Assembly (NCBI GenBank): GCA_029881495.1
Contig: JAOUMJ010000030.1
Span: forward strand, 1-34,618
DNA: 34,618 nucleotides
Direction: 5' to 3'
Origin: Nitrospinota bacterium
Lineage (GTDB): Bacteria; Nitrospinota_A; UBA7883; JACRGQ01
A program made the position numbers and the translations under genes. A model generated the notes under the pieces. The model had not been told where the DNA came from and did not search any database. It was given only the letters and a program-made list of their open reading frames with translations. This document shows, in pieces, positions 15,733-33,900 of this stretch. Each line of letters starts with the position of its first letter. Position 1 is the stretch's first letter.

Positions 15733-16509
15733 TTGGCAATCACGAAAAATTCTGCAAGTCTCATGGAATTCGTAGCCCATTGTCTGCATAACGCCGAATC
15801 GGTCAAAATCGAACTGGATGAGAACCTGTATAGCGGCACTGTTGAAAGATGGAAAATCGGTCAATTTATAGTTTTTAAAACCAGCAATATCGACAATTCT
15901 CTGGTTGGCATACCTGCCGGATTTTCAGGGCTGAAGCTGAAGGTCATCGGCAAGAGCGGCGCCGTTCGAAACTTCACTACCAAAATATTGAAAAAGAAAC
16001 TCCCGCTGATCATGCTCAGCTTCCCAGCCAGTGAAATAGAAAAGGTAGACAGGGAATTTGAACGGGTGTATGTCCAGCTCGACACTCCGGTTATATTGAC
16101 CAAAAGAATTGGAGATATTCTCCCTGATGAAACAACGCATGTCGGCACCATCACAAACATAAGCAAGGGGGGGTGCGCAATCTCAACTCAGCTAGGACTG
16201 CATAAGGGGGATAAAATAAACTTCTTTATGGAAGTTTCCAGCACATCCGGCAAGAAGAGTCTCGACCTTTTGGGCATTGTGCGCGGAGTTCAAAAGTACG
16301 ATAACGGCACCGCCTCATATGGCATCGAATACCAAAAGCTGAACCGCGAAACTAAAAATGAAATCGACACATTCATGGACAGAAGATTGGGGATGCTTTC
16401 GCAAAACATCATCAGTTCCGAAGAAGCCGGGGTCCTGGAAAAATTGAAAGCACTGCATCAAAAGGAGCTTGAACAGATGATCGAGCCGGAATTTCATATT
16501 AGAAAATAA
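15733..16509 (+). CDS. PilZ-domain protein (YcgR-like two-domain architecture)
   Basis: Protein of 258 residues. Residues about 1-115 form an N-terminal beta-rich domain of the kind found before PilZ in YcgR-type flagellar brake proteins. The PilZ domain follows, with the c-di-GMP-binding RxxxR (REFER, about 127-131) and NxSxxG (NISKGG, about 158-163) motifs, so binding should be intact. It is a soluble cytoplasmic protein that probably changes a partner's activity when c-di-GMP rises. The start is a TTG at 15733 preceded by GAGAGGTG; no nearby ATG fits. It has its own near-consensus promoter and is followed by a histidine kinase gene with a separate promoter. Confidence 0.85.
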   Translation: MAITKNSASLMEFVAHCLHNAESVKIELDENLYSGTVERWKIGQFIVFKTSNIDNSLVGIPAGFSGLKLKVIGKSGAVRNFTTKILKKKLPLIMLSFPASEIEKVDREFERVYVQLDTPVILTKRIGDILPDETTHVGTITNISKGGCAISTQLGLHKGDKINFFMEVSSTSGKKSLDLLGIVRGVQKYDNGTASYGIEYQKLNRETKNEIDTFMDRRLGMLSQNIISSEEAGVLEKLKALHQKELEQMIEPEFHIRK

Positions 16510-16590
16510 TCTGCTCAGCGAAACATAACCACATCTTCGTTGCTGCTTCCCGCGCAACCGTGGATCAGCAACCCCTCCCACTGCGAAATG

Positions 16591-16619
16591 TTGCACTAAT
16601 TAATTTTTTCTAATACACT
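16591..16619 (+). promoter_or_regulatory. Predicted sigma70 promoter of the histidine kinase gene
   Basis: TTGCAC at 16591-16596 and TACACT at 16614-16619 are separated by 17 bases in the gap after the PilZ gene. The kinase gene starts at 16683. Confidence 0.55.
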
Positions 16620-16682
16620 TTACCCGGTTGGTTACTGCCTTGCCTGTTCCCTTTATCGAAATTACAGAAGTTGGTGGCAAAA

Positions 16683-18848
16683 ATGGGAAGAAAAACCCGC
16701 CGGTATTCACTGCCGGTTTTAGTTGGTTCGCTGTTGATAACATTCGCGATATCCCTCTTCACCCGCCACCACATTATCACCGAGGCGGCCGACAAATATG
16801 ACGCCGAAGTCAAAGAATCCCTATCATCCATAGAGGAGAGGCTGAACATATATATGGAGGTTATCCGCGGCGCACGCGCCCTATATGACGCTGACAACAG
16901 CGTAAGCAGGGGGGAATGGAACCGGTATTACAACTCGATCGAAATTTCAAAACGGTATCCGGGAATCCGGGCAATACAATTATCCAGATTCATCCGTCAC
17001 GCGGATAAGGAAAAGTTCATTCAACGGGTGAAGAGCGACAGAAGCGTGAAAGCGGAAGGGTATCCAGATTTCAAAATCGAGCCTGCCGGCGAGAGGGAAT
17101 ATTATGTCGTCGTAGACTACAACGAACCGTTTGAGCAAAACGCGCTGGCTCATGGGTTTGACGCCGCGTACGGGCAAGAAAGGAAACCGGTTATTGAAGC
17201 TGCCCGGGACACCGGCGCGATGACCCTGACTGGAAAACTTGATCTCCTTTATGGAATACCAGGTCTCGTAATGCATTTTCCAATATACAAAAATGAACTC
17301 CCCCGAAACAGCGTTTCAGAGAGAAGAGAAGCTCTTGAAGGATTTGTGTCGGGTGTTTTCAACATCTCTGATCTGATGAAAGGGATGCTTGGAAACCGTC
17401 TGGAGAGGAAGATTCACTTTCAGCTGTTCGACCTAGGCCCCGCCAATGCCAACAAAGAACAGCCTGGTGAAAGCGGCAAAATATTGCTGTACAGCAATGG
17501 GGAAGAAGCCGGATACCAAAACAGCTCCGATTTTGAAAAGCTTGTATTCACAAACACAATGGAGATCGGCGGGAGAACATGGCAATCGGTTTTCCAGCCG
17601 AAGGAAGACCTCTCCCCGAATTTCTACACAAACTCGGCCTTGCTGGTGCTTATTGGCGGGGTATTCATCAGCATGCTTCTTTACATGTTTGTCGAATCCC
17701 TTGAAAAGAAGGGGGTGGCGGAGGCGCTTTCAGTATTGTCGGAAAAGCGTTTTTATGACATCGTTGAGAACTCCAACGAAATGATATGGGAATTGGATGC
17801 GGAGGGAAAATACACATACGTCAGCCCTGTGATCGAAAAACTGCTCGGGTATAAACCGGCTGAGCTTACGGGAAATCACTACCTTAATTTTTTCGAGGGG
17901 GATACCAATTCCGGATTTAAAAAGACTGTCGAAAAGAATTTCCAAACACAAACTCCCTTCAGGTCTTTTGTAGCTCGGCATCTCAGCAAGAAAGGGCATA
18001 TCGTCTATCTTGAATTCAGCGGCGTCCCGGTGACGGATAAGCAAGGCGCATTCCTCGGCTACAGAGGCTCTGCCCGTGACGTTACCAAGATCAAAAATGC
18101 CGTGAAGGAGATGCGAAAAGCCCGTGATTCCGCGGAAGAGGCAAACAGGTTTAAATCGGAATTCCTTGCAAATATCAGCCATGAGCTCAATACGCCTCTC
18201 AACAGCATTATCGGCTTTTCAAACCTCCTCTCAAAAACTGAACTTGACGAACGCCAAAGGAAATTTTCAGACATGATAAAGGGCTCCTCCGCCAAACTCC
18301 TCTCACTTATAAACGAGATATTGGAGCTGTCGAATTCGGAATTCGGAGAATCCTACATTTCGGAAAGCGAATTCAACCTCATGGATTTAATTGATTCAAA
18401 CATTGCAGGCGTCGAAAAGGAACTGCTGAACAAAAAGATCCAGATGGAAATAAGCATAGGCGAAAACACACCAACCCTGCTAAAAGGGGACGCCGGGAAA
18501 CTAAGCCGCATTATCAAAATGATACTTTCAAACGCGGTAAAGTTCACCGAAACAGGAAGGATCGTTTTCATGGCCGAATTACACGAAAAAAACGGAAAAT
18601 CGGCAAAATATCATTTTGCCATCAAGGATTCCGGCATCGGAATTCCCGAAGATAAAAAGGATGCCATCTTCCAGGCCTTCAAGCAGGTCGATGGTTCCAT
18701 AACTAGAAAATTCGGCGGTATCGGCATAGGGCTTGCCACATCAAAAAGGCTGATAGAGATCATGGGGGGAGAAATCTGGTTCGAGAGTCAGGAAGGGATT
18801 GGCAGCACCTTCCATTTTATTTGCCCTCTGTCCATTATCAGTTCCTGA
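16683..18848 (+). CDS. Membrane sensor histidine kinase: CHASE - PAS - HisKA - HATPase
   Basis: About 721 residues from the ATG at 16683 (a TTG at 16671 is in frame; numbering below is from the TTG). There is a membrane segment at 14-30, an extracytoplasmic CHASE-type sensor at about 75-250 (YPGIRAIQLSRFI, YYVVVDYNEPFEQNALAHGFD), a second membrane segment at 323-341, PAS at about 358-472 and HisKA with H504 in FLANISHELNTPLNSIIGF. HATPase follows, with DSGIGIPEDK and FGGIGIGLATSKRLIEIMGGEIW. It should autophosphorylate in response to an unknown small ligand. The H-box has asparagine where arginine is usual (HELRTPL). No receiver domain is attached; the convergent response regulator-GGDEF gene, 26 bases beyond, is a candidate partner. 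Confidence 0.9.
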   Translation: MGRKTRRYSLPVLVGSLLITFAISLFTRHHIITEAADKYDAEVKESLSSIEERLNIYMEVIRGARALYDADNSVSRGEWNRYYNSIEISKRYPGIRAIQLSRFIRHADKEKFIQRVKSDRSVKAEGYPDFKIEPAGEREYYVVVDYNEPFEQNALAHGFDAAYGQERKPVIEAARDTGAMTLTGKLDLLYGIPGLVMHFPIYKNELPRNSVSERREALEGFVSGVFNISDLMKGMLGNRLERKIHFQLFDLGPANANKEQPGESGKILLYSNGEEAGYQNSSDFEKLVFTNTMEIGGRTWQSVFQPKEDLSPNFYTNSALLVLIGGVFISMLLYMFVESLEKKGVAEALSVLSEKRFYDIVENSNEMIWELDAEGKYTYVSPVIEKLLGYKPAELTGNHYLNFFEGDTNSGFKKTVEKNFQTQTPFRSFVARHLSKKGHIVYLEFSGVPVTDKQGAFLGYRGSARDVTKIKNAVKEMRKARDSAEEANRFKSEFLANISHELNTPLNSIIGFSNLLSKTELDERQRKFSDMIKGSSAKLLSLINEILELSNSEFGESYISESEFNLMDLIDSNIAGVEKELLNKKIQMEISIGENTPTLLKGDAGKLSRIIKMILSNAVKFTETGRIVFMAELHEKNGKSAKYHFAIKDSGIGIPEDKKDAIFQAFKQVDGSITRKFGGIGIGLATSKRLIEIMGGEIWFESQEGIGSTFHFICPLSIISS

Positions 18849-18874
18849 AAACTGCCGGAAACAGCTTACCCTCG

Positions 18875-19858
18875 CTAGGTCTTGCTACAAACTATCCTGT
18901 TCCTTCCTTCCCGTTTTGCCTTGACCAGCGCCTTGTCGGCTTCCTTGATCTGGCTATAGGAAGATACCTTTTCGCTTGGATGGTCGCTCGCGCAGCCGAT
19001 AGACACGGAAACATAACTTGATACTTTCGAAAGCTTATGCTCGATCTTCATGGCCTCAATGGCGCCATGGGCATCTTTTGCCATCTTTTCCGCGTCCTTT
19101 GGCTCTATCTCGGGAAGGATTATCGCGAATTGATCCGCGCTATATCTGGAAACCAGGTCGGCGGGCCGTTGGGCGATCTTTGCCAATCTTTGTCCAATTT
19201 TTCGAAGACATGTATCAGCTTCCTGCATTCCGTACGCATCGTTATACGCCCGGAAATAATCAATATCTATCAAAATGATCGAGAACAGTTTTTTATCCCT
19301 TGCGCATCTTTTCCACTCTCTCTCGAACAGTTCATCAAAGTGCATCCTGTTTGACAGACCTGTAAGCGAATCAATTCGCGAAAGCCTCTCAAGTTCCCTG
19401 TTGGACTGCGATAATTTCCGCGTGGCCTCTTCCAGTTCCTTTTCCCTCGCCTTGCGCAAATCCATCTCCCGCTTTAATTTCAGCACTGAATTTACCCTTG
19501 CGATAAACTCGACCTTGTTAAAAGGTTTCTCGAGAAAATCTATCGCCCCTGCATCGAACGCCGGCTGGAGAGATTCCTCCTTCCCCATAGCCGTGACAAC
19601 TACTATCGGCAGGTCCCGGAATGCGTCGATGCTTTTTATTTTTTTGCAGGCTTCAATACCGTCAACCATGGGGAGATGTATATCGAGAAGAATCAGGTCA
19701 ATATCTTTTACCACCTTGCCATTTCTGCTGATCCCTAGAATTCCGAACGCCTCTTCCGCAGAACCGGCTCTTACCAATTCGATCCCTCCGATCTTGTCGA
19801 TAATCGCTTCAAAAAGTTCCAAGTCGTGCTGCGAATCATCTACTGCTAAAATTTTCAC
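18875..19858 (-). CDS. Response regulator with degenerate GGDEF domain
   Basis: Protein of 327 residues. The receiver domain (1-125) has phosphoacceptor D59 and conserved K111. A coiled coil (about 128-160) leads to a GGDEF domain (about 160-325). The signature is SADQF (240-244) instead of GGDEF, and the upstream NDxYGHxxGD element reads NDAYGMQEAD, so cyclase activity is doubtful. The metal-binding DID (198-200) remains, and the inhibitory-site motif RxxD is intact as RPAD (231-234) at the usual five-residue spacing. It may therefore be a c-di-GMP receptor or scaffold controlled by phosphorylation rather than a diguanylate cyclase. It is convergent with the CHASE-PAS kinase gene. The start ATG at 19858 opens directly into the receiver domain. 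Confidence 0.88.
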   Translation of the reverse strand: MKILAVDDSQHDLELFEAIIDKIGGIELVRAGSAEEAFGILGISRNGKVVKDIDLILLDIHLPMVDGIEACKKIKSIDAFRDLPIVVVTAMGKEESLQPAFDAGAIDFLEKPFNKVEFIARVNSVLKLKREMDLRKAREKELEEATRKLSQSNRELERLSRIDSLTGLSNRMHFDELFEREWKRCARDKKLFSIILIDIDYFRAYNDAYGMQEADTCLRKIGQRLAKIAQRPADLVSRYSADQFAIILPEIEPKDAEKMAKDAHGAIEAMKIEHKLSKVSSYVSVSIGCASDHPSEKVSSYSQIKEADKALVKAKREGRNRIVCSKT

Positions 19859-28885: not shown

Positions 28886-29287
28886 TTAATGGGAACTGTT
28901 CAATTCACTCTCGATTTTCTGCATTACGGCATGCAGTTCGGCCTTCTGTATAGGCTTGGTGAGATAATGGTTCGCCCCGCATTTCAACGCCTCCTCCATG
29001 TCCTTCTTCTCCTCGTTTCCGCTCACCATTACGATCGGAATATTCCGGAGGTAGTCCCGCTCCCTTATCTTTTTGCATACCGACAAGCCGTCTATCTTCG
29101 GCATTACCACGTCGAGCATTATTACATCTATGTCGGTCGATGTTGTCCCCTTATCCCTCATGCCGAGGATCTGGAACGCCTCCATGGCTGATTCCGCCAT
29201 GACAATATCCTTGTAACCGCCGAGGTTCAACAGACGCTCGATAAAAACCCTGATTGTGCTTGAGTCGTCCACTATGAGAATTTTCAT
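28886..29287 (-). CDS. Single-domain response regulator (CheY-like)
   Basis: Protein of 133 residues from the ATG at 29287, which has AGAGG upstream and opens directly into the receiver fold (the frame is open to 29422). Acidic pair DD at 7-8, phosphoacceptor D59, S89 and K111 are in place, with no output domain. It shares an unusual stretch with the receiver of the degenerate-GGDEF regulator at 18875-19858: the pattern SAxEAFxILG, a variable loop, then DIDxIxLDxxxP. So the two are paralogues. It is divergent from the pseudo-cyclase-PilZ gene and may act on the proteins encoded there. Confidence 0.9.
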   Translation of the reverse strand: MKILIVDDSSTIRVFIERLLNLGGYKDIVMAESAMEAFQILGMRDKGTTSTDIDVIMLDVVMPKIDGLSVCKKIRERDYLRNIPIVMVSGNEEKKDMEEALKCGANHYLTKPIQKAELHAVMQKIESELNSSH

Positions 29288-29475
29288 TTCAGCCCTCTTT
29301 GAAAAGTCGTTTATCTGCTCGCGAATGTCTTTACTGCCCAGTTTAACAAACTTTTCACGAAAAATTAATAAACCGGCTCCTACGCCCGATATGTTCACTC
29401 CATTTTGGTACGGTAATCCCACATTTGAATATCATCAGGCATCACGAGGTCATTTTGTTCTAAAATAACCCGCAT

Positions 29476-30771
29476 ATGAGCGATATATACAAATACCTGC
29501 CGAAGGAGGAACTGGCCGGACTCCTTGCCAGGTTTACCGGAATCGCCGGGATGGATTTTTCAATCCTGCCGACTGACGACGAAAATCCGATCATTGGGGC
29601 GGAAATAAACGAGAATGCAATAAATATCTACGAATCCGACATAAACGTGGAGTCTTTCAAGGTCGCAACACTGTACGCTCATTCCCCCGCAAAGCCCGAT
29701 GAAAAGCTGAAAGATGCCGCCGCTCTGCTTAAAAAACTTATCGAGGAAAAGATATCCGACAGGGTAACAATAGGGAACCTTGAGCAAAAATCCAGAATAG
29801 ACAAGATATCCTCCGGTAAGCCCGGCAAAAAGGTCATAAAACACGAAGGCTCGCGGAGCGGAGAGCTGGTGGAATGCACAATCCTTGTATCAACGATATG
29901 CGATTTCAACAGCTCGGTGACAGGACAGAAACCGGAAAACATCATAAACATACTGAGCGAATATTTTTCCGTAATGCCGGAGGTTATCTCGAAGAATGGC
30001 GGAAACGTAAACAAATTCCTCGGCGACGGCGTCATGGCGGTATTCGGAGCCCCCTCATTCATGCCGGAGAGTCACATAAACGCTATAGCCTCCGCTCTTG
30101 AGATGCACCAGGCGTTCAACAGGCTTAAAAGGATGTGGGTTGAAAAAGGCCTCCCCCCGTTCGACCACAAGGTCGGGATATGCACCGGGACGGTTATCGC
30201 GGGAAACGTAAGCTCTCCCGATATCGACGTGTATACCCTCGTGGGGGATCCGATCCAGATAAGCGTGAGAATTCTTTCGAATGCCAGTCCGAATTCCACG
30301 GTAATCTCGCACTCCACTTTTGAAAAGGTCGGGCCTCAGGTGCGCGCTCAGGCGCTTCAGCCGATAAGCATTCCCGGCATCGCGGGGATAGTAAGGCCGT
30401 ACGAGATATTCGCGCTCAAACCGCTACAGATATTCGAGAACTCGCTCCGCAAATTCGAACGGTATGAAGTAGCCCTCCCGGTTACGCTTCAGAAAACCGG
30501 CTCCGCCGGAACTTCCGAGGGGACAATGATAAACCTCAGCCTCGGCGGTGTACTCTTTACATCCGAAACCGATTTCAAATCGGACAGCAAGGTGACCATC
30601 AGCTTCCCTATCGAAGTAAAGGATCTGACCGTGACCGCTTCCGGAAAGGTGGTTTACAGAAAGGATTTCAAGGACCCGGTAGGGAACGTCTACTATCATA
30701 TCGGTATCGAGTTCGACAAGTCCGTAGATAAACATCTCAAAGCGCTTGGCGAATTCCTGGAGAAGCTCTAG
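29476..30771 (+). CDS. Class III cyclase homology domain fused to PilZ; catalytic residues replaced
   Basis: Protein of 431 residues. Residues 1-125 are a small GAF-like sensory region of uncertain identity. Residues about 131-312 are a class III cyclase homology domain. Compared with the intact cyclase encoded at 30931-33225, the first metal-binding Asp is Thr (T140 in ILVSTICDF) and the transition-state Asn is Gln (Q261 in VGDPIQISVR); the second Asp (D184 in KFLGDGVMAVFG), the base-recognising Lys (K180) and the Arg (R265) remain. Residues about 325-428 are PilZ, with RKFER (326-329 region) and NLSLGG (353-358). Catalysis is therefore doubtful, while c-di-GMP binding should be intact. No ribosome binding site precedes the ATG; TAAAAT lies at 29461-29466. 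Confidence 0.87.
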   Translation: MSDIYKYLPKEELAGLLARFTGIAGMDFSILPTDDENPIIGAEINENAINIYESDINVESFKVATLYAHSPAKPDEKLKDAAALLKKLIEEKISDRVTIGNLEQKSRIDKISSGKPGKKVIKHEGSRSGELVECTILVSTICDFNSSVTGQKPENIINILSEYFSVMPEVISKNGGNVNKFLGDGVMAVFGAPSFMPESHINAIASALEMHQAFNRLKRMWVEKGLPPFDHKVGICTGTVIAGNVSSPDIDVYTLVGDPIQISVRILSNASPNSTVISHSTFEKVGPQVRAQALQPISIPGIAGIVRPYEIFALKPLQIFENSLRKFERYEVALPVTLQKTGSAGTSEGTMINLSLGGVLFTSETDFKSDSKVTISFPIEVKDLTVTASGKVVYRKDFKDPVGNVYYHIGIEFDKSVDKHLKALGEFLEKL

Positions 30772-30789
30772 ACCACAATTTCCGGAAAA

Positions 30790-30810
30790 GGGGCAAACCA
30801 CCCATGCCCC
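30790..30810. terminator. Possible bidirectional terminator hairpin
   Basis: GGGGCA (30790-30795) pairs with TGCCCC (30805-30810) across a nine-base loop, in the gap between the two convergent cyclase genes. CTTTTCC follows on the minus strand and a short CTTTTGC on the plus strand. The stem is short. Confidence 0.35.
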
Positions 30811-30930
30811 CTGCTTTTGCGTAAAAGTGCAAGGAATGGCTGAGGAATAACTCACGGTAAACGGAAGCTTATGCAGATACCCGTGTTTGCATATCGAAGA
30901 TGAATTTTAGTTTCTGCGGAAGGCGGATTG

Positions 30931-33225
30931 CTACTTTGACGTCATCTTCCAGACGCCATCCCAGTCGGCAACATTCTCAGCCTTAAGATGTTCGCACCGC
31001 TCTATATAGGTTTCCGACAGCTTGTCGCCGGGATTCAGCGTGAGCACCTTCCGGAATTTTTCGATCGCCTTCTCCCAGTTACCCCCTTTGTAATCCTTTC
31101 TCCCCTCGTTGAAATATCCGACCACTTCCATCAGGTTGGGGAACGACTTGTCGTCGTAGTAATCGAGCACCTCGTAGATCTCGACCGGTTTGGTCTTACC
31201 TTTCACCACCACGTCGTCGATGGACCTCACCCTGTAAGTCCCTTTCAGTTTTTTATATGTGTTCTCGCTTATGATGATGCGCGCGGAGTACTGCTTGCAC
31301 GCGCTCTCGAGCCTCGCCGCGAGATTCACGCCATCCCCTATCATCGTGTAGTCCACCCTCTTCGGCGAGCCGATATTTCCCGATACGACATTGTCGGTAT
31401 TCAATCCTATCCCCATATCGATAGGCTTTTGTCCCTGGCTTATCCTTTTCTGGTTCCACTCCTGCATGTCGACTATCATCGAGATGGCGGCACGAACCCC
31501 CCTGTCCTCATCATCGTCGCGCGCAACCGGTATTCCAAACGCCGCCATGATGGCGTCACCGATAAATTTATCCAGCATCCCCCCCTGCCTTGAGATGGCG
31601 TCTACCATTATCGTGAAGTATTCGTTCAGCAGGGCTACAGTCCCCTGCGCCCCCAGCTCTTCGGTGATGGTGGTAAAGCCCCTAACGTCCGAAAAAAGAA
31701 CAGTGGCAACGGTGCTCACGCCGCCTAGGATATCCTGCCCGCCGGCCATAAGCTGATCAGCTATTCCAGGATCCATGTATCTCGACATTGTCGACTTCAT
31801 CCGCTTCTCGCTACTGATATCCTCTATCATCACCATAACGCCGAGGTATTTGTTTTCGCCGCTCATAAGCGGAAGGACCGTAATGTTCGCCGAAACAGGC
31901 TCCTCTCCGAATTTAACTTCCGCGTCCATGAAAAGCTCGGTTTCGTGCGTCTCCTTCACCTTGTTTATCTTTTCGAGCACCCATAGATTGTCACCGGAGA
32001 AAAACTCCTCCACCTGCTTTCCGATTATTTCGCCTTCGGTGACCCCGATGATCCTCAATCCGGAGGCGTTGCACGTAACTATCTTGCCGTCAGCGTTCAT
32101 CGTCACCACTCCGTTCGACATACTTTCAAGCATCGACTCGTTGTAGTTCTTCATGTTCTGCACGTCGGCAAAGAGTTTGGCGTTTTCAAGTCCTATCGAT
32201 ATCTGCGCCGTGAACGCCTTGAGACGCGCCTCGTCCTCCCCCGTAAACGGCCCACCTTTCTTGTTCAACACCTGCGTAACGCCTATTATCTTTCCGTCCT
32301 TGTTTATTACCGGCGTACAGAGTATCGATCTCGTAAAATATCCGGTCTTCTTGTCGAATGACGGGTTGAACCGCAGGTCCGCGTATGCGTAAGGTATGTT
32401 GACCGTCTCCCCCGAAGTGAAAACCGCGCCGGCGATGCCGAGGTGGTTCGGGAGGCGTATCTGAACCGACTGCAATCCTTCGCCAACCTGCGACCATAGC
32501 TCGTTTGTCTTCTCGTCGTTTAGGAAGAGTGTCGAACGGTCGGCGTTCAGCATCCGCGTCGCCTCACTCATTACCTTTTTCAGGAGGGAGTTGAGGTTTA
32601 TCTCGGAGGTCATGTCCGAGACCACATCGAGGAATTCCATCTCCTGCTTCCGCTTGAGCTCCATGTTTTCCACTATCTGCGCGCTCTGGAGGATTACTGC
32701 GGTTTGCGTCGTGATCGCTTCTATCAGCTCAAGATCTTTCCTTGTGAACCGCCCCTTTTTCTTATTGAGAAGCTGTATCACGCCTATTATCTCCCCCTTT
32801 ACCGTCTTGACTGGCGCGCAAAGTATCGTCTTCGTGTGGTACCCGGTCTCCTTGTCTATCGAATCGTCAAAATGTTCGTTCTGATAGGCGTCGTGGATGA
32901 TCTCGCTTTTACCGGAGGTGAAAACATATCCCGCCACGCCGGCATTGTTCATTATCCTTATCTCGCGCATGAACCGCCCCTGCGCGAAACGGGAGTATAG
33001 CTCCCCCGTCTTTTGGTCATTCAGGAATAGTGTTCCTCGGTCTGCCTCGACCACTTCGCTTGCTATCTCTACAAGTGCCTTTAGCATCCCGTCCAGGGTA
33101 TCGTATCCGGCAAGCACCTTGGAGGCGTCGAGCATTATCTCCAGCTGGCGCAGGCGGCCGTTGCCGTTCAATACCCCCTTGCCGGCTGATAAACCGGGTT
33201 TGCTTTTACTTTTTGCCTTTGCCAT
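30931..33225 (-). CDS. Adenylate cyclase with GAF - GAF - PAS - cyclase - TPR (CyaB1-like)
   Basis: Protein of 764 residues. GAF1 about 46-180, GAF2 about 205-350, PAS about 362-475, class III cyclase about 503-690, TPR-like region about 705-745. This is the architecture of the cyanobacterial cyclases CyaB1/CyaB2, in which cAMP binding to GAF stimulates synthesis. GAF2 has the complete NK-F-DE pattern (NKKGGPFTGEDE); GAF1 has NKKKGRFTRKDL with the last residue changed. The cyclase keeps metal Asps D513 (FSDVRGF) and D557 (KFIGDAIMAAFG), K553 and T627 consistent with ATP use, and N634 and R638 (GDGVNLAARLE). It should make cAMP in the cytoplasm. The start at 33225 has GGAAG and overlaps the coiled-coil gene by 20 bases. 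Confidence 0.92.
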   Translation of the reverse strand: MAKAKSKSKPGLSAGKGVLNGNGRLRQLEIMLDASKVLAGYDTLDGMLKALVEIASEVVEADRGTLFLNDQKTGELYSRFAQGRFMREIRIMNNAGVAGYVFTSGKSEIIHDAYQNEHFDDSIDKETGYHTKTILCAPVKTVKGEIIGVIQLLNKKKGRFTRKDLELIEAITTQTAVILQSAQIVENMELKRKQEMEFLDVVSDMTSEINLNSLLKKVMSEATRMLNADRSTLFLNDEKTNELWSQVGEGLQSVQIRLPNHLGIAGAVFTSGETVNIPYAYADLRFNPSFDKKTGYFTRSILCTPVINKDGKIIGVTQVLNKKGGPFTGEDEARLKAFTAQISIGLENAKLFADVQNMKNYNESMLESMSNGVVTMNADGKIVTCNASGLRIIGVTEGEIIGKQVEEFFSGDNLWVLEKINKVKETHETELFMDAEVKFGEEPVSANITVLPLMSGENKYLGVMVMIEDISSEKRMKSTMSRYMDPGIADQLMAGGQDILGGVSTVATVLFSDVRGFTTITEELGAQGTVALLNEYFTIMVDAISRQGGMLDKFIGDAIMAAFGIPVARDDDEDRGVRAAISMIVDMQEWNQKRISQGQKPIDMGIGLNTDNVVSGNIGSPKRVDYTMIGDGVNLAARLESACKQYSARIIISENTYKKLKGTYRVRSIDDVVVKGKTKPVEIYEVLDYYDDKSFPNLMEVVGYFNEGRKDYKGGNWEKAIEKFRKVLTLNPGDKLSETYIERCEHLKAENVADWDGVWKMTSK

Positions 33226-33652
33226 TTCGCACTTCCATTTCGTCCCTTAATCCCTGCACGGTTTCATGCAACTGCTTTATTTCATTCATATGCTCAAGCT
33301 TTGTTTTCTGTTTCTCCGAGGCATGCCTTATTTTCGTGGCGGCTATCTGATCCCTCAGCGCGCCGATCGCGTTCTTTAGCTGCAGGATCTCGTCGTTCGC
33401 TGACGATACCGCCCTCTGTACCGCGCTCTGCTTCTCCATTTGAAGCCCTTCCAGCCTCTCGCGAAGGGCGGATACGGTCTCCTTCAACTGCTCCACCTCG
33501 ATATTCACTTCAGCGACAGCTGTCTGGATTTTCTGTTTTTCGGCGAATTGGAGGGACTCCATCTTCTCGCGAAGAGCGGATACGGTCTCCATGAGATGCC
33601 TGTTCTCCTTGCGGAGTTCATGCTCCTCGGTCGTCTGAATATCCAGTTCCAT
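33206..33652 (-). CDS. Coiled-coil protein made of 36-residue repeats
   Basis: About 148 residues from the ATG at 33652, preceded by AGGGGGAGT (the frame is open to 33811; another ATG is at 33664). Almost the whole protein is helical: three successive units of exactly 36 residues, each beginning near L-x-ETVSALRE-x-x-x-x-LQ (the third diverged to LKNAIGALRDQI), and a partial fourth (LHETVQGLRDEM). It ends basic (RNGKGKK). No other domain is present. It overlaps the adenylate cyclase start by 20 bases, so the two are translationally coupled, and it is probably a scaffold or regulator of that cyclase. That role is inferred from context. Confidence 0.75.
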   Translation of the reverse strand: MELDIQTTEEHELRKENRHLMETVSALREKMESLQFAEKQKIQTAVAEVNIEVEQLKETVSALRERLEGLQMEKQSAVQRAVSSANDEILQLKNAIGALRDQIAATKIRHASEKQKTKLEHMNEIKQLHETVQGLRDEMEVRNGKGKK

Positions 33653-33900
33653 ACTCCCCCTCATGCCGGCCAGTCTTTGGTCATATTTTATACCAAGTTT
33701 ACCCCACTCGGAGGAGAAAGGGCAAAACTCCGCCCAATACAAAGGTTTTAGTAATTTGAAGTCGAAATCTAGACTGGCCTGTTTGAAAGCTATAACCATA
33801 TTTGGTAGCATTCATCTGAACAAACCAAAATCTACAGATACATCATGCTGATACATCCTCGGGTAATTGCTGTAATAAGTCCGTGGCGAGAGGAAATTTG

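Follow-up and report, generated by a model that had tools for sequence, protein, structure and literature searches.

The fusion gene of this locus joins a class III cyclase homology domain (CHD) to a PilZ domain in a single chain of 431 residues. It lies in a 34,618-nucleotide contig of a Nitrospinota bacterium; "the window" is this whole stretch, as analyzed here. Is the product a cyclase controlled by c-di-GMP, a regulator that has given up catalysis, or a gene on its way to being lost? If a class III cyclase carried a PilZ domain of its own, a single protein would unite the two messengers, cyclic mononucleotides and c-di-GMP; in a described case of crosstalk between them, XC_0250/XC_0249 (PMC3770947), separate proteins are involved, and our search of the literature, the coverage of which was incomplete, yielded no account of a fusion between such a cyclase and PilZ. 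The original prediction, made from the sequence of the window, was that the CHD is a pseudo-cyclase able to poison or tune the intact cyclase encoded next to it, with c-di-GMP setting the output of cAMP. As argued below, the protein is probably a lineage-specific pseudo-enzyme, that is, the descendant of an active cyclase with the order N-terminal domain, GAF, class III cyclase and PilZ, which now responds to c-di-GMP as a non-enzymatic protein.

Domain architecture and catalytic residues

The features of the locus and of the homologous proteins are collected in Table 1. Residues 133-301 match Guanylate_cyc (PF00211; E 4.6e-14, 52.9 bits, above the Pfam cut-off), and residues 324-428 match PilZ (E 4.7e-13, 49.8 bits vs a curated Pfam cut-off of 22.5); the N-terminal domain has no match in Pfam or NCBIfam. 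Both c-di-GMP motifs that had been read in the PilZ domain are present, RKFER (325-329) for RxxxR and NLSLGG (353-358) for (D/N)xSxxG. YcgR-type PilZ receptors of c-di-GMP carry the same two motifs; in YcgR, however, the PilZ domain is attached to the YcgR N-domain, whereas here it follows the proposed pseudo-cyclase domain. The assignment of the CHD to class III is also supported by Foldseek matches to Cya2 (2w01) and CyaC (1wc0), which resemble it in fold and sequence (28-30% identity, TM 0.8-0.9); the 431-residue protein differs from both in having T140 and Q261 for the catalytic Asp and Asn and in having a PilZ domain.

Table 1. Coordinates of the fusion gene, its domains, its neighbors and the intact homologous proteins.
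Feature	Location	Strand	Remarks
Fusion protein (proposed pseudo-cyclase with PilZ), 431 residues	29476..30771	+	Open reading frame; Pfam domains; D140 and N261 uniquely lost
N-terminal domain, residues 1-106	29476..29793	+	Predicted helix-strand-strand-strand-long helix; common only to the G003 and G006 homologs
Short linker, residues 107-128	29794..29859	+	Homologs have GAF and a conserved pre-cyclase linker here, ~180 residues more
Degenerate class III CHD, residues 129-313	29860..30414	+	T140 29893; D184 30025; Q261 30256; R265 30268
PilZ domain, residues 320-429	30433..30762	+	RxxxR 30448-30462; NxSxxG 30532-30549
GAF-GAF-PAS-class III cyclase (CyaB1-like)	30931..33225	-	Residues DKDTNR intact
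Coiled-coil protein, overlaps start of CyaB1-like gene	33206..33811	-	Homolog in the same place in 4/4 cyclase-bearing relatives
CheY-like response regulator, divergent from fusion gene	28886..29422	-	Receiver domain from ~residue 48
Intact GAF-class III cyclase-PilZ protein, G003	L036 923-2875; JAHFEI010000290.1		Nitrospinales MAG nzgw265
Intact GAF-class III cyclase-PilZ protein, G006	L037 8976-10820; JAJRYM010000131.1		MAG Dive96_bin3.303
Intact GAF-cyclase-PilZ protein, G024 (another phylum)	L038 6740-8440

The family alignment confirms the two substitutions on which the prediction had been built. T140 (codon ACG) stands in the column of the first metal-binding aspartate and Q261 (codon CAG) in that of the transition-state asparagine; thus, one member of each catalytic pair is lost, and the second metal-binding aspartate (D184) and the arginine of the Asn/Arg pair (R265) are kept, as are K180 and the base-selecting threonine (T254). 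Asp occupies column 140 in 87/88 of the remaining CHDs (the sole exception is His), and Asn occupies column 261 in 87/88; the combination of T140 and Q261 is unique among the 89 CHDs. A base-calling error was considered and excluded: the sister proteins use GAC/GAT and AAT/AAC at these positions, so the change from Asp to Thr takes three base changes and that from Asn to Gln takes two, and neither substitution is a single miscall. The degenerate CHD keeps 18 of the 26 family-conserved positions; of the eight lost (140, 145, 149, 161, 246, 260, 261 and 263), six lie near T140 (140, 145, 149) or Q261 (260, 261, 263) in the sequence.

Each catalytic site of a class III dimer is built from both chains: one supplies the metal-binding aspartates, and the other supplies the transition-state residues and those that select the base (PMC4886424, PMC12264004). 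In a homodimer of the fusion protein, both sites would lack the first metal-binding aspartate, and neither cAMP nor cGMP would be expected to be made, because each site needs that aspartate from one chain. The protein could still be an unusual cyclase, or a related nucleotide enzyme, that relies on other residues: K180, D184, T254 and R265 are retained, and the transition-state Asn is dispensable in some class III cyclases (Rv1900c has His and works; PMC4886424). However, the metal-binding aspartates are described as indispensable (PMC4886424), column 140 is occupied by Asp in all but one of the other CHDs and conserved positions close to the lost residues have changed as well, so we regard continued enzymatic activity as very improbable.

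Intact homologs and the ancestral state

The nearest homologs are encoded by G003 and G006, which represent two further genera within the family of the source organism, and share 43% identity with the fusion protein over 302-304 residues. In both, the N-terminal domain, cyclase and PilZ occur in the same order, and a profile match of the N-terminal domain unites the three proteins; however, the homologs also have a GAF domain, an RSNFQRYLSP linker and all of the catalytic residues, which are absent or altered in the 431-residue protein. Approximately 180 residues, that is, the GAF domain and the linker (RSNFQRYLSPTIVDDI), have been deleted between its N-terminal domain and CHD; in the predicted structure, the region that now connects them (100-127) has pLDDT <50.

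In a tree of 88 CHDs, the degenerate CHD nests in the G003/G006 clade (SH-aLRT 98; a quick tree in which this row is a long branch), and its end branch measures 1.29 vs 0.26 and 0.14 for its sisters, that is, it is 5-9 times longer. Relative-rate counts against the two sisters are 41:10 and 44:12 (p ~2e-5, with G024 as the outgroup), and the test gives p <0.05 in 17/18 combinations of sister and outgroup. The PilZ domain has no detectable acceleration, with counts of 10:6 and 13:9 that are not significant; the direct contrast between the two domains is suggestive only, as its Fisher p values (0.18 and 0.10) are not significant alone. Given that the proteins of G003, G006 and G024 are intact, the pseudo-enzyme state is specific to one lineage; from these sequences, the ancestor was likely an intact enzyme. 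The predicted pseudo-cyclase therefore stands as a defective CHD whose fold is probably kept; it does not stand as a property of the family, in which the usual Asp and Asn occur in G003, G006 and G024.

With the 431-residue protein alone as the query, no relative was recovered from 84,980 species genomes; a second, alignment-based scan recovered 58 loci, and PilZ was found only in the records of G003 and G006. A search of 24 genomes of the phylum gave zero matches at E <= 1e-30 beyond these two, and G004 contains a C-terminal fragment at a contig edge.

The genome context differs as well. The fusion genes of G003 and G006 come after a histidine kinase gene, and G006 has CheA- and CheY-like genes further upstream; the gene in the window is not preceded by a histidine kinase gene, and no ortholog of that kinase was found in the source genome (best match 27%). 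The gene divergent from the fusion encodes a CheY-like response regulator; with the receiver domain beginning only around residue 48, translation probably starts at about 29287.

A retained domain or a decaying gene

Loss of a sensor domain and fast evolution of the CHD are also what a dying gene would show. According to this explanation, a GAF-cyclase-PilZ gene was recently inactivated, has no function and is heading to loss; the degenerate form was seen in one genome only (the sole genome of its genus in the comparison), and the fusion was not found in 7/11 genomes of the family. Several properties of the sequence argue against it. The frame is unbroken over 431 codons, and the CHD can be aligned with its G006 counterpart for 180 residues (49% identity) with zero indels; when neutral evolution was simulated to the same identity, the CHD was free of stops in only 1.75% of the runs. 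The hydrophobic pattern is preserved at the sites that differ from the G006 CHD (p 0.0015), and the codon differences between the two are most frequent in third positions (third 110, first 69, second 52), with some of the changes on the G006 branch. The predicted CHD has pLDDT mostly 80-95 and TM 0.82-0.91 to Cya2, CyaC and CyaB; the model was built with an alignment that includes intact cyclases, so these values describe compatibility with the fold and are not proof of it. The PilZ domain, in turn, has both motifs and a rate that is not detectably raised. From the indel-free CHD, its predicted fold and the lack of detectable acceleration in the PilZ domain, we conclude that a domain that is kept and catalytically dead is most likely and fits the pattern better than gene decay, which we judge improbable.

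Two antisense open reading frames (29679-30062 and 30424-30855) were judged spurious, and a scan for promoters and terminators yielded nothing above chance level.

The neighboring cyclase and the question of a partner

As originally described, an intact CyaB1-like cyclase is encoded end to end with the fusion, with 159 bases between the two genes. The genes are convergent, tail to tail, and therefore do not form one transcript. Orthologs of the CyaB1-like cyclase (63-68% identity) occur in G006, G015, G016 and G022; in the stretches examined around them, the fusion gene is beside the ortholog in 0/4. The two genes also occur separately: the fusion family was not found at E <= 1e-30 in G015, G016 and G022, and G003 has the fusion, with no CyaB1-like ortholog found at E <= 1e-100. 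The conserved neighbor of the CyaB1-like cyclase is instead the coiled-coil gene directly upstream, which is present in 4/4 relatives. Finally, the two CHDs are 27% identical and belong to different clades of the tree. Thus, the expected conserved pairing is absent, and a dedicated link between the fusion protein and the adjacent cyclase is not supported.

Two minor observations concern these orthologs. The coiled-coil gene (33206-33811) is matched in L107-L110 at the same place, and the CyaB1-like ortholog of G006 (L110 802-3092, G006:C188) is split into two overlapping open reading frames with an in-frame TGA, a frameshift or an assembly error.

A partner could also be sought elsewhere in the genome. 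The fusion protein would then be a c-di-GMP-dependent subunit of a heterodimeric cyclase, completed by the CyaB1-like neighbor, the catalytic residues of which are intact, or by either of the two class III cyclases, likewise intact, that other contigs encode (C11, C15). Class III sites are shared across chains, and heterodimers with one degenerate chain have a natural precedent in the rhodopsin guanylyl cyclases NeoR/RGC1, in which NeoR lacks the NxxxR motif and the dimer has one active and one regulatory site (PMC12264004). NeoR and the fusion protein are alike in being class III chains whose catalytic motif has degenerated; unlike the fusion protein, however, NeoR has both metal-binding aspartates and a demonstrated partner (PMC12264004), whereas the fusion protein has lost one metal-binding aspartate as well as the Asn, so neither site of a heterodimer would be fully equipped, and its partner is hypothetical. 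In such a heterodimer, the site that depends on the fusion protein for its aspartates would lack the first of them and be dead; the other, with both aspartates of the partner and Q261/R265, might be active. Because Rv1900c is active although His replaces the Asn (PMC4886424), the heterodimer could be half active and not necessarily poisoned; the proposed poisoning would thus hold for one of the two sites and is not a necessary outcome at the other. Added to this, the linker that the active homologs keep is missing from the 431-residue protein, the genes are convergent, the CHDs are distant and each gene is found without the other. A heterodimer with either kind of partner is accordingly doubtful. 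The more specific proposal, that a c-di-GMP-gated pseudo-cyclase subunit joins an intact class III cyclase of the same cell and sets its output, and that it descends from an ancestor whose PilZ domain acted directly on the cyclase in its own chain, is unlikely.

Proposed role and signaling context

For the non-enzymatic c-di-GMP responder favored here, the likeliest role is that of a c-di-GMP-responsive scaffold in which PilZ senses the messenger and the CHD dimerizes or docks. Judging from its motifs, the PilZ domain would bind c-di-GMP, and binding would shift the CHD joined to it. This CHD would serve as a folded module for dimerization or docking, perhaps with a nucleotide still bound by K180, D184, T254 and R265, and would relay the c-di-GMP state to a putative protein target; another cyclase of the genome could be that target.

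The source genome contains 10 matches to GGDEF (c-di-GMP makers), 11 to PilZ and 13 to cNMP-binding domains; together with the further cyclases, these suggest that both messengers are probably in use.

In the fusion gene, the GAF sensor and probably also catalysis have been lost, and the PilZ motifs have stayed; it therefore offers a case in which the idea of a bacterial pseudo-cyclase can be put to the test. The GAF-cyclase-PilZ relatives that are still intact provide the clearer link from c-di-GMP to a cyclic nucleotide and, by their sequences, are candidates for direct control of cyclic nucleotide synthesis within one chain, of which they would be the more direct test.

Two other loci in the source genome are of related interest. 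Approximately 10 kb from the fusion gene, the window contains a cluster (15733-19858) that encodes a PilZ protein, a CHASE-PAS histidine kinase and a receiver-GGDEF protein. A HEAT-repeat protein (L005 1300-3351, G000:C10) carries at its C-terminus a cyclase-like domain that is very divergent (21.3 bits).
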